Source of the DNA: Ignavibacteriales bacterium
GTDB lineage: Bacteria; Bacteroidota; Ignavibacteria; UBA10030; SZUA-254
Assembly (NCBI GenBank): GCA_016214905.1
Contig: JACRMQ010000007.1
Location: 1,191,695 to 1,255,694 of the forward strand
DNA length: 64,000 nucleotides
Direction: 5' to 3'
In this document: piece by piece, positions 40,094 to 43,778 of the stretch
Position numbering within the stretch: the stretch's first letter is position 1
How the letters are laid out: each line of letters starts with the position of its first letter
Program-made: the position numbers and the translations under genes
The notes under the pieces: model-generated
Told to the model about the DNA's origin: nothing
Databases searched by the model: none
What the model saw: the letters and a program-made list of their open reading frames with translations, nothing else

Positions 40094-42199
40094 CTATCTG
40101 TAAAATTTATCTCGGTTGTCAACAATATCCGCATTCTTCTTGAGCTGTTCAATCCACTGACTGAAGAAGCGATTTCGCCTTTCGCTGAGCAATTGATTCC
40201 GTAACATAGGACGTTGAGAAGTGTAGACTGTTGAATCGAATGCCGACTTATTAATTAATTTTATCAAATAAACGCCTCGTTGACTTTCAATTGGCTGAGA
40301 AAGATCGCCTGTATTTAATTGACTGATCCCACCAAAGAATCCAAGATCACGGCCGATTCCGGGGATATAACCCGATAAAGAAAACGAGGTTAGATGCTGT
40401 ACATTAATTTTCGGATTCATTTGAGATAATTTTTGAAGACTATCCGTTTGCGATATAGATTTACGGGTTTCTGCAGCTATCAATTTTACTTTTTCTAATT
40501 TCTTATCTCGTTTGAGCCGACTTTCAACAACCGTTTTAACTTCATCAAATGGGCGAATGCCGGCCTCTTTCACTTCTGTTATTTTGAAAACGCCGTATCC
40601 ATTCGTAACTGAAAAGAGCGGACTCACCGTTCCAACCTTGTTTGAGAAAGCAAATTTGTTAACAGTGCTGTTCATTCCGATTCCCGAAATTCCACCGTCT
40701 TTCTGAAACGAAGAAGTTTCCAATACATTCAATTTGCTCTGTTGAGCCTCCTTCTCAAAATCACCTTCCTGAGCAAGGTAGGCAAAGTCTTGAGCCTGCT
40801 GAGAAATATTCGTGCGAGTTCTGGAACTGATCCGGATCTGCATATGGATATCCGAAAACTTTACCTCACGATTGTCCCGTGCGTGAACTTTAATGATATG
40901 ATACCCGAAATCCGATTTAATGGGAGCGAGTAACTCACCAACTTTCGCTTTGAAGGCGGCTGTTTCGAATTGTTTAACCATTTTACCTTTGCTGAACCAA
41001 CCTACGTCGCCACCCCGACTGCCAGAACCCGGATCTTGGGAATTATCTTTCGCAATCTGGGCGAAATTTTTTCCATTCTTTATGTCATTGAAAAGATTTT
41101 TTGCTTTTGCGAATGCGGCAGCGCTGTCATTATTTTCAATTTTTATCAAGATATGGCTTGCATGTATAAATTCATTCTTGCCGGGCTGGAAGGCAGTTAC
41201 TTTCATCAGATGAAAACCGTCAAAATCTTTAACGGGACCAACAATATCTCCAACCTTGGCTTGAAATAAAGCATTTTCTTTTTCAGCACTCATCTGTCCA
41301 TGTGCGACAAACGATTCGGTTACATTTGTTTCGTTGTACATATTTTTCAGAGTATCAAAATCAACTCCGGCTTGCGCACGTTTTATGATGTCTTGCAGTT
41401 CAGCTATAACATCGTTCGTGTCGGTCGTTGAAGGTACTTCATTGAATATTACATATTTCAATTTCCTGGTGGCTTCAACTTTATAATCTTCAGAATGCTC
41501 ATTGAAATAATTGCGGAGATCGTCATCTGATACTGAAATTTCGTTATCAGGTATGAGTGTATTCGGATCGAAGAATGCGTAATCGGCATCGTACTTTATA
41601 TTCTGATCAGAAAATTTTTGATAAACATCATTTTCAGATACATTAACACTTGCGGTAATTATACTTTGGAGTTTTTCACGCTGACGCTGTCTGCGTAGAA
41701 GCTCTTCTATCTGTATCATGATACCTTTATTTTTCGGATCCATTATAGTAGCATCATATGCCTGTCTGTTGAATTGACCCGTTGAATCTGTAAATTGTCT
41801 TGTTAAAAATTCAGGTGGTTGTTCACCTTTTACCCAGTCAACGATCTCCTGGTCGGTGATTTTGATCCCTAATTTAGCGATCTGTTCATCGTATAAGGTT
41901 TCTTCTACCAATTGCTGCCAAATTTGATCACGGATCGATTGTTGCTGGTTTTCATCGGGTTCTGTTCCGGTTTGGGCTTTTTGATTGTCAACGGCTTTCC
42001 GAAACATCTCGGCAAATTCTTTTGATGTGATAGCACGTTCGTTAATTTTGCCAATCTCTTGTGATTCTATTTGCATCCGGGATTGTTTTCGTCCGGTTAT
42101 ATCCATTCCCCAATCGAGAACGATGTAAATAACGAAAACTCCGGCGAATATTGAGAAAAATGTCGCTAATCTCTCACGTATTTGTGTCATTAAAGGCAT
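40094..42199 (-). CDS. PpiD/SurA-type membrane-anchored peptidyl-prolyl isomerase
   Basis: 701 aa. N-terminal transmembrane anchor at about 13-31. A SurA_N-like chaperone region covers about 50-240 (QLVEETLYDEQIAKLGIKITDQEI, in part). A degenerate parvulin-like unit lies at about 245-337 and a clearer parvulin domain at about 344-440 (ASHILIKIE, SQDPGSGSRGGDVGWFSKGKMV, FGYHIIKV). Another helical/PPIase-like segment follows to the end. PpiD-type proteins assist newly exported proteins leaving the Sec channel. The 260-bp upstream leader carries a strong terminator and a candidate structured RNA (42302-42425), which could attenuate this gene. Confidence 0.9.
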   Translation of the reverse strand: MPLMTQIRERLATFFSIFAGVFVIYIVLDWGMDITGRKQSRMQIESQEIGKINERAITSKEFAEMFRKAVDNQKAQTGTEPDENQQQSIRDQIWQQLVEETLYDEQIAKLGIKITDQEIVDWVKGEQPPEFLTRQFTDSTGQFNRQAYDATIMDPKNKGIMIQIEELLRRQRQREKLQSIITASVNVSENDVYQKFSDQNIKYDADYAFFDPNTLIPDNEISVSDDDLRNYFNEHSEDYKVEATRKLKYVIFNEVPSTTDTNDVIAELQDIIKRAQAGVDFDTLKNMYNETNVTESFVAHGQMSAEKENALFQAKVGDIVGPVKDFDGFHLMKVTAFQPGKNEFIHASHILIKIENNDSAAAFAKAKNLFNDIKNGKNFAQIAKDNSQDPGSGSRGGDVGWFSKGKMVKQFETAAFKAKVGELLAPIKSDFGYHIIKVHARDNREVKFSDIHMQIRISSRTRTNISQQAQDFAYLAQEGDFEKEAQQSKLNVLETSSFQKDGGISGIGMNSTVNKFAFSNKVGTVSPLFSVTNGYGVFKITEVKEAGIRPFDEVKTVVESRLKRDKKLEKVKLIAAETRKSISQTDSLQKLSQMNPKINVQHLTSFSLSGYIPGIGRDLGFFGGISQLNTGDLSQPIESQRGVYLIKLINKSAFDSTVYTSQRPMLRNQLLSERRNRFFSQWIEQLKKNADIVDNRDKFYR

Positions 42200-42301
42200 G
42201 TGTAGGTTATCCTTTGAAAAAATGTTCAGGAAATTAAAAATACTTCAAAATATACGAGAAAAATGCAAGATAAGCAATGGAAAAATTGGATTAAATAAAA
42301 A

Positions 42302-42330
42302 AGCCGCTCTAGGGGGTACCTAAAGCGGCT
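42302..42330 (-). terminator. Strong intrinsic terminator upstream of the PpiD-like gene
   Basis: Minus strand: AGCCGCT (42330-42324) pairs with AGCGGCT (42308-42302), with a second inner stem TAGG/CCTA. It is directly followed by six Ts (42302-42297) and an AT-rich tail. It is oriented to end a transcript coming from 42425 or from the flavoprotein gene, about 100 nt before the PpiD-like ATG. Confidence 0.8.
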
Positions 42331-42425
42331 AAACGTTCATCCTTCTACATATCCACCGTATCGTTACGTATTCCACATCCAATCGGAAGGATGCCGTTCA
42401 TATTACGTAACATCGTCCGGATAAA
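42302..42425 (-). ncRNA. Candidate structured small RNA or leader attenuator
   Basis: Between the flavoprotein stop (42460) and the PpiD-like start (42199) lies about 120 nt ending in a strong terminator. Read on the minus strand, GTTACGTA (42411-42404) can pair with TACGTAAC (42370-42363), and CATCCTTC (42393-42386) can pair with GAAGGATG (42345-42338). The two 8-bp helices interleave, so they either form an H-type pseudoknot or exclude each other. GGATA/TATCC (42350-42354 and 42419-42423) could extend the first. No known riboswitch class was recognised. It could be an independent sRNA, a 3'-UTR element, or a switch controlling the PpiD-like gene. Confidence 0.4.
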
Positions 42426-42459
42426 TGAAAGTTCCCTAATTTAGAAAAATATTTTTCCC

Positions 42460-43611
42460 CTAAAGCCAACGCCAAAGCCAATATTTTTCCAATACTACCT
42501 TACTCCAGTGCAATGTAACATTCGGGTCTGTCCAGGATAGTACAGATTTTTCAGTGTTTATTAAGTTTCCATGTAAGTATGATGCCTTGCCATTTCCGGT
42601 TTCAAGGAAAAAAAATCCATAACCGGAAAATTCTTTCCTATCAGAATTTTCCTGCAGCTCTTGAGCAATATTAAATGCTACAACTTCGGCTTGATTGTTG
42701 GCAAATATCCCTGCCTTCGGAAGAATGTGACCATTCTCCATCTTTATATTAATGCAATCGCCAATAGCATAGATGTTGTTGAAGTCGGTTTGCATAGTTC
42801 GCTTGTTCACTTTGATCCAGCCCGATGCATCCAACATATTTGATAATCGAAGAGCATCAGGCGGTTTCATAGGGGGAACTATGATCGATATATCTGGTTC
42901 GGATGATTTCGTTTGTAAGGTGATTCGAGATATTGGATCATCAGGATTTTTGTCAAGTTGGGTATTGGGTAAAAAATTTATATGCTGATCAACCAGAAGT
43001 TTTCGCATCTGAATGTTGATTTCTGATGGAGCGAATGGAAGCGGTTCTTGGTTAGGTGAATTCAATATGATCTCGATATTACCGATTCCTCTTTTCTGAT
43101 AAAATGACGAGAGCAGAAAAGCGGCATCGAATGGAGCAAACGGATATTTAACCTCATTACTTAATTGAGATATTTCAATCTTACCGCCCGGAAATATCGG
43201 GATAATCTTGCTTAACTCAACAGCTCCTTCGAATGTGTAAAATGTATTTACGCGGTTGCCGACTGCAAACTCTGCCGGTAACTCGTTATCAGCTCCAAGT
43301 GCGATCACCAGATAATCAAAATGAAAATTTCCCCGGTCTGTCACAACGATTTTATCATTCTTATCAATCGATATTACCTCTGCTTGTTGAAATTCTATTC
43401 CGTGTTTTTCTAGGGAAGTAAATGGTTTTGTGATTGCTGCCGGAGTGCGCCATCCGATCACAATCCAGAGGAATGATGGTTGGAAAGCATGATAAGAATG
43501 TCTGTCGATAACGATAATTTTGTGTTGGCTGCCAATGTGTTTTCTCAGGTCTCGTGCTGTAACAATACCACCCATTCCACCGCCAATAATGATAATCGTT
43601 TTTTGTTCCAT
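42460..43611 (-). CDS. SQR-like FAD-dependent oxidoreductase lacking the SQR cysteines
   Basis: About 383 aa from ATG 43611 (MEQKTIIIIGGGMGG); an earlier in-frame start at 43650 adds 13 unlikely residues. Rossmann FAD motif GGGMGG (10-15), RHSYHAFQPSFLWIVIGWR as in sulfide:quinone reductases, LVIALGAD, and the second FAD motif IYAIGDCINI. The segment that in SQR carries a catalytic cysteine (C-P-x-x-P-Y-E type) reads KYPFAPFDAAF here. The only cysteine in the protein is in GDC. It is therefore a member of the SQR/NDH-2 flavoprotein superfamily with an unknown donor, more likely an NDH-like or new activity than sulfide oxidation. Confidence 0.78.
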   Translation of the reverse strand: MEQKTIIIIGGGMGGIVTARDLRKHIGSQHKIIVIDRHSYHAFQPSFLWIVIGWRTPAAITKPFTSLEKHGIEFQQAEVISIDKNDKIVVTDRGNFHFDYLVIALGADNELPAEFAVGNRVNTFYTFEGAVELSKIIPIFPGGKIEISQLSNEVKYPFAPFDAAFLLSSFYQKRGIGNIEIILNSPNQEPLPFAPSEINIQMRKLLVDQHINFLPNTQLDKNPDDPISRITLQTKSSEPDISIIVPPMKPPDALRLSNMLDASGWIKVNKRTMQTDFNNIYAIGDCINIKMENGHILPKAGIFANNQAEVVAFNIAQELQENSDRKEFSGYGFFFLETGNGKASYLHGNLINTEKSVLSWTDPNVTLHWSKVVLEKYWLWRWL

Positions 43612-43778
43612 AATTGAATCTACAAAAATATCGGTAAAAAATCGAATCATAAAAACTGATCAGATTTTACATTTCTTCACGGAAAACTTATAAAATGTGT
43701 AAAGTTGCATTTTAAACAATACTTTCGTAAGATTCAGAATTCAAATAAAGAAATCAAAATTCAAACAGTGAGGAATAT

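Follow-up and report, generated by a model that had tools for sequence, protein, structure and literature searches.

The question raised by this locus is whether the 260-bp intergenic gap between two minus-strand genes in the window (the whole stretch of DNA analysed, 64,000 nucleotides) holds a regulatory leader of the downstream gene or an RNA of its own. The downstream gene encodes a PpiD/SurA-like peptidyl-prolyl isomerase (40094-42199, minus strand; PF00639 (PPIC) and PF13623 (SurA_N)), here called ppiD, and the upstream gene encodes a flavoprotein like sulfide:quinone reductase (42460-43650, minus strand; PF07992 (Pyr_redox_2)), which scored 174.8 bits against NF049943, under the cut-off of 525 for that model. 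The original prediction had pointed to two perfect, interleaving 8-bp complementary pairs in the gap, and both are exact: 42338-42345 (CATCCTTC) is the reverse complement of 42386-42393, and 42363-42370 (GTTACGTA) is that of 42404-42411. When 42302-42425 was shuffled 20,000 times with dinucleotides preserved, at least one such pair arose in 6.1% of the shuffles, at least two in 1.6% and two interleaved pairs in 0.025%, and interleaved pairs were present in 4 of 2061 overlapping 124-nt tiles of the whole window. The strand 42296-42425 folds with z = -3.95, terminator counted in. Rfam 15 gave no match at gathering score within the window (at E ≤ 10 just two matches fell in 42200-42500, both far under their gathering scores), and no known class had been recognised in the original prediction; the window contained no tRNA or tmRNA. 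The ATG of a 22-codon frame that crosses the gap is not conserved in G001, the nearest relative. We consider it probable that 42402-42296 of the minus strand is a free-standing, base-pairing small RNA of about 105 nt, driven by an ECF sigma factor and acting as the noncoding arm of a stress regulon.

Members of the family and their promoter boxes

A DNA search of 100 relatives gave only G001 (83% identical) and G002 (a partial match) above chance-like matches, the next being at E 0.004, and further members in G009, G006 and G007 were spotted by eye in the regions upstream of ppiD. A covariance model, R1, built from four genomes (alignment A4) and searched in a sample of 391 genomes of the class, recovered nine members with E values of 2e-5 or lower. 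The tenth, in G007, had an E of 3.8e-4 amid false positives and was accepted for its position ahead of ppiD, its promoter and a perfect helix P1. Model R2, built from all ten members and searched in 98 genomes of the order, returned the same ten, its own training set, with E values of 2e-13 or lower; no other match fell under E = 0.008. The element was found in 10 of 15 genomes of the family (G000, the genome of the window, and G001, G002, G005, G006, G007, G008, G009, G011 and G013), with no R2 match in G003, G004, G010 (61% complete), G012 or G014, and R2 with its filters off reached at best 15.6 bits on eight loci of non-carriers. The R1 and R2 searches used strict filters, with 8 and 33 candidates scored per genome, so that absence outside the family is not proved by them.

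Outside the family, GGTGGA was present in none of 13 inspected R1 matches and in two of seven weak R2 matches, one of which (G048) also had the promoter. This locus (L207; G048:C393:2606-2735, minus strand), from another family of the order, has an R2 E of 0.075, the boxes GGAAC-N17-CGTT and a helix (GGGCUCAUCCGG/CCGGAUCGAGUCCC) around GGUGGAU with a T-run soon after, and is perhaps a distant member in which P1 itself is the terminator. The composite pattern GGAAC-N17/18-YGTT-N36/65-GGTGGAT was matched in 71 of 391 class genomes against 19 for a reversed control; the matches take in 7 of the 10 members and G048, and the excess goes beyond what the members explain. Some of these matches fall inside the coding sequence of a SigH-like ECF factor, and codon usage may be the source of further ones.

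All ten members carry what the comparison indicates is an ECF-type promoter of their own at a fixed distance before the RNA. In the window its -35 box GGAAC lies at 42431-42435 and its -10 box TGTTA at 42408-42412 (core GTT at 42411-42409; both minus strand), giving GGAAC-N18-TGTTA. GGAAC and YGT are each present in 10 of 10 members and GTT in 8 of 10, the exceptions being GTG in G002 and GTA in G011, and GGAAC and YGT are 17 bases apart in seven genomes and 18 in three. With G001 left out as a near-duplicate, pairwise identity was 100% in GGAAC, 77% in the four-base -10 core and 24-25% in the spacer; conserved boxes around a random spacer are the pattern expected of a promoter and not of an RNA. 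SigH/SigE-dependent promoters of Corynebacterium glutamicum are described with the consensus GGAAC-N17-18-cGTT (PMC10012870) and SigH promoters of Mycobacterium tuberculosis with GGAAYR-N17-18-GTT (PMC4803200), and the boxes seen here are like these, in which GGAA and GTT are 19 bp apart, and fit the SigH/SigR-type pattern GGAAY-N17-19-GTT (GTT in 8 of 10 members). Those regulons are actinobacterial, and the reading is carried over to this genome on the strength of box sequence, spacing and the presence of a SigH-like ECF factor. An ECF factor of the SigH/SigE promoter class as the driver has good support.

A model built without the promoter (R3) was run over 87 loci to check that the promoter had not merely been picked by the model. 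Five of the six members unused in its training ranked first, and G007 (33.5 bits) came eighth, not separated from terminator false positives preselected by R1. Among the best 30 of 40 R3 matches, promoter and GGTGGA were both present in 6 of 6 held-out members, and either one in 0 of the 24 others.

Helix P1, loop motif and terminator

Promoters of this class usually initiate about 8 bases beyond the -10 box, which here places the expected transcription start at 42400-42402 (minus strand), where the paired 5' end also begins. From there to 42296 we infer a transcript of about 105 nt (42296-42402, minus strand), the element that R1 and R2 found in 10 of 15 family genomes. The outer part of its helix pairs UGAACG (42400-42395) with CGUUUA (42335-42330), and inside it the 5' strand of P1 (CAUCCUUC, 42386-42393), which contains a UCCU invariant among members, pairs with the 3' strand (GAAGGAUG, 42338-42345), this being the first of the two 8-bp pairs. 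An alignment-free swap test showed stronger hybridisation for P1 strands from one genome (mean -14.8 kcal/mol) than for strands taken from different genomes (-11.3 kcal/mol; permutation p = 0.0001). Alignment A6, which was fitted to the model and hence leans to its structure, had changes on both sides in 16 of 21 pairs (P1 6 of 9, terminator 10 of 12) and 90.8% of cells paired, and none of 500 shuffles reached its pairing by any of five measures. These are the compensatory changes in relatives for which a covariation check had been proposed. In a MAFFT alignment of all ten transcripts (A5) the 3' strand was misaligned and it was left out of the pair counts. Examples of P1 variants are CUCAUCC/GGAUGAG, CUCAUCC/GGGUGAG, CUCACUC/GAGUGAG and CUCGUCC/GGACGAG, and P1 is part of the minimum-energy fold in 10 of 10 members; taken singly, the hairpin parts fold unremarkably (z -0.27 to -2.32).

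The minus-strand stem and T-run of the original prediction correspond to a predicted intrinsic terminator at 42302-42330, with a 12-pair stem (42330-42302) followed by TTTTTATTTA, the U-run extending to 42297; one such structure was found against 0.5 expected in shuffles of a 701-base region. The prediction of a structured, terminator-ended RNA in the gap is upheld by the comparison of relatives. The terminator is conserved and no frame common to the members was seen by eye; the element may be a discrete noncoding unit.

The loop of the hairpin holds GGUGGA (42352-42357, minus strand) in all ten members. It is possible that UCCU(U)CC of P1 (42386-42393) pairs with the loop GGUGGAU to give a transient alternative hairpin. 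By eye, internal helices within P1 with a GUGGA bulge are consistent in several members. At four loci (L124, L126 and L127, inside the RNA, and also L122) GGUGGA occurs in tandem about 14 nt apart, GAGAUGGUGGAUUAG.UACGGUGGAUAGG.

The GGA motifs raise the question of an RNA that sequesters a protein, titrating one of the CsrA/RsmA type: GGUGGA is doubled in G005, G008, G009 and G013, and AGGAUG is present in P1 of several members. AGGAUG is not kept, however, being AGGGUG or AGAGUG elsewhere, and a search for CsrA that was positive in 3 of 14 control genomes gave 0 of 15 in the family, so that a CsrB/RsmZ-like CsrA sponge is ruled out in the family. Sequestration of another RNA-binding protein is possible, and protein titration as a whole we regard as very unlikely. 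A coding function, in which the ECF-driven transcript would mainly encode a tiny peptide, has a precedent in Pos19 of Rhodobacter, described as a coding ECF-dependent small RNA (PMC5036791), and a 7-codon frame ending GAG ATG GTG GAT stop is indeed present in G005, G008, G011 and G013. (This frame overlaps GGUGGA at L123, L124, L126 and L127.) No 7-codon frame was seen in the other six members and the 22-codon frame of G000 is not conserved in G001, making this extremely unlikely; a short ORF was rejected as the common element since its frame is not common to the members.

The second helix and the neighbouring genes

It had been proposed that the interleaved pairs form an H-type pseudoknot or mutually exclusive helices, in the 260-bp leader of the PpiD-like gene. 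The second pair fares differently from the first. Its arm at 42404-42411 overlaps the -10 box and lies upstream of the expected start, 2 of its 8 pairs are mismatched in G001, and the swap test gave a weak signal (p = 0.015 with all ten members, 0.014 without G000 and G001). This weak signal counts against reading 42404-42411 as promoter, and the second helix could matter in a read-through RNA. On the overlap with the -10 box and the mismatches in G001 the pseudoknot or leader switch was rejected, since the second helix would lie only partly in the predicted transcript and is imperfectly conserved; a more general caution is that a promoter box can pass for one arm of a pseudoknot.

A predicted promoter of ppiD itself, TTGCTT-N17-TATATT (42249-42277, minus strand; TATATT at 42254-42249), lies downstream of the terminator. 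In 25 of 29 genomes, that of the window included, TTGCWT-N17-TATATT or a near-match stands 71-124 bases ahead of the first codon of ppiD, compared with 4 of 5800 shuffles; the sample was 30 loci out of the 87 genomes with a match besides G000, with L047 left out as too short. At L061 (G087) the stretch from the ppiD promoter to the start codon contains a perfect inverted repeat of 17 bases (ACGCATTCCGATAGCAT...ATGCTATCGGAATGCGT).

The gene order around the RNA varies. ppiD follows it in six genomes (G000, G001, G002, G006, G007 and G009), and the two may also be adjacent in G005, where the contig stops 93 bases past the RNA and ppiD starts 10 bases from the edge of another contig. The RNA lies about 14 kb from ppiD in G011 and about 8 kb in G008, and no ppiD was found in G013 (79% complete). 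The promoter of ppiD together with the position of the RNA away from ppiD in G008, G011 and G013 points to a free-standing, ECF-driven small RNA, and an RNA contiguous with the ppiD mRNA was rejected on the same two grounds. A 5' leader switch controlling the PpiD-like gene would account for the exact interleaved pairs, rare in shuffles, for the RNA standing directly upstream of ppiD in 6 of 10 genomes and for the weak swap signal of the second helix, but with the ppiD promoter beyond the terminator, the second helix on the -10 box and no ppiD adjoining the RNA in three genomes we consider it highly improbable. The size of the gap as first described stands; its description as the leader of ppiD does not.

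In seven of the ten genomes (G000, G001, G002, G005, G009, G011 and G013) the RNA comes after the flavoprotein gene, and the hairpin could be the end of that gene's mRNA, either as an RNA derived from its 3' UTR or as a plain terminator region; one terminator would end the flavoprotein mRNA as well. Against this, conserved promoter boxes stand between the stop codon and the RNA, and promoter and helix are kept where the gene was not found or lies elsewhere. No flavoprotein homolog was found in G006 or G007 at E 1e-20, and in G008 the only one (29% identity) is on another contig, with the RNA adjoining neither neighbour gene. G006 keeps the RNA and ppiD without the flavoprotein gene, and adjoining them are STAS and PEBP genes, which in the window lie beyond the flavoprotein gene. 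We hold an origin in the flavoprotein mRNA to be unlikely.

Candidate sigma factor and comparison with known systems

G000 has 14 Sigma70_r2 matches, and one of its ECF factors (L154; gene at G000:C7:237388-237963) has TIGR02947 (SigH family) as its best model at 185.7 bits, 55 bits above the next at 130.9, with a score below the NCBIfam cut-off of 251.55 bits for curated membership of the SigH family. Its gene is followed by one for a TlpA/ResA-like thiol oxidoreductase (L154:1444-2719); the sequence immediately after it revealed no anti-sigma gene. Of the ten carriers, nine have a close ortholog (at least 71% identity), the exception being G011, where none was found, and so do 3 of 5 non-carriers (G004, G012 and G014). 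Upstream of 11 of the 12 close orthologs there is no such promoter, and the single match has a shorter spacer. Among 13 ECF genes of G000 inspected upstream, loose promoter matches were found at L151 only; there GGAAT-N17-GTT, a loose SigH-type match, lies 146 bases before another ECF gene.

The strict pattern GGAAC-N17-TGTT was found before msrB in 5 of the 11 genomes with an MsrB match (G000, G001, G006, G008 and G010), each time some 40-65 bases ahead of a potential start codon, and in 22 of 5500 shuffled upstream regions. It accompanies 4 of 6 orthologs of at least 65% identity and 1 of 5 distant ones, so that 6 of 11 msrB genes are without it, and G010 has the msrB promoter and no RNA match. 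In G000, msrB and a thioredoxin-fold protein are behind one GGAAC-N17-TGTTA promoter (L173:1501-2640; G000:C7:280640). Genome-wide, the promoter pattern showed no excess (25 matches against 20 for a reversed control), with just 6 of these 25 placed outside ORFs of at least 70 codons. A promoter common to msrB would point to redox stress. The link to stress that the original prediction drew from the neighbouring folding factor is plausible, but the SigH/SigE-type ECF promoter, common to msrB in these five genomes, would direct it to redox and not envelope stress. The L154 SigH/SigR-like ECF is the likely factor driving the RNA, its identity and its signal being what we infer from promoter class and the msrB gene.

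Taken together, the features suggest a mechanism in which thiol or redox stress would release the SigH/SigR-like ECF sigma factor of this genome, which would most likely transcribe the RNA from GGAAC-N18-TGTTA. The RNA would fold into one long hairpin (P1) with the conserved GGUGGA displayed in the loop, transcription would end at the intrinsic terminator at about 42296, and the RNA would most likely base-pair with mRNAs through the invariant UCCU, the GGUGGA loop or both, since UCCU could pair with ribosome-binding sites of the AGGA type, of which the AAGGAT ahead of ppiD is an example. It is possible, if rather doubtful, that the RNA forms a noncoding arm, specific to this lineage, of a thiol-stress response of the SigH/SigR type in Ignavibacteria-like Bacteroidota and acts without CsrA, with UCCU and the GGUGGA loop (tandem in four members) as alternative pairing surfaces. 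By the titles listed in the literature, no such RNA has been described in Ignavibacteria-like Bacteroidota. The covariance model, the promoter and the candidate sigma factor can now be used with metatranscriptomes.

The promoters of MicA and RybB of enterobacteria have a GGAACTT-type -35 box, similar to the GGAAC found here, but their -10 box is TCnAA compared to YGT(T) here, and their neighbourhood is different too. Both RNAs are described as the noncoding arm of an ECF stress regulon (PMC1804206), the role proposed for the RNA of this study. The FoxJ and FoxI RNAs of Fusobacterium nucleatum are likewise ECF-sigma-dependent small RNAs in an intergenic gap, and FoxJ too was once regarded as the 5' UTR of the gene downstream of it and is reported to have its own start site and a putative Rho-independent terminator (PMC11005410). 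They differ from the present RNA in sequence, sigma factor and host phylum, and in having a cytosine-stretch seed and tested targets (PMC11005410); by analogy with FoxJ, base-pairing with mRNAs is likely here. Pos19 of Rhodobacter sphaeroides resembles the proposed RNA in being an ECF-regulated RNA of the oxidative-stress response, but it is 219 nt long, has a translated 150-nt sORF and depends on the sigma factor RpoE (PMC5036791). Given the good comparative support for promoter, helix and terminator, the element very probably represents a new family of a known kind, the ECF-dependent small RNA. Small RNAs under ECF control are known from Proteobacteria and Fusobacteriota (PMC11005410), and a comparatively supported family with a SigH/SigE-type promoter in uncultured Bacteroidota relatives suggests a wider origin or spread of the noncoding arm of ECF stress responses.
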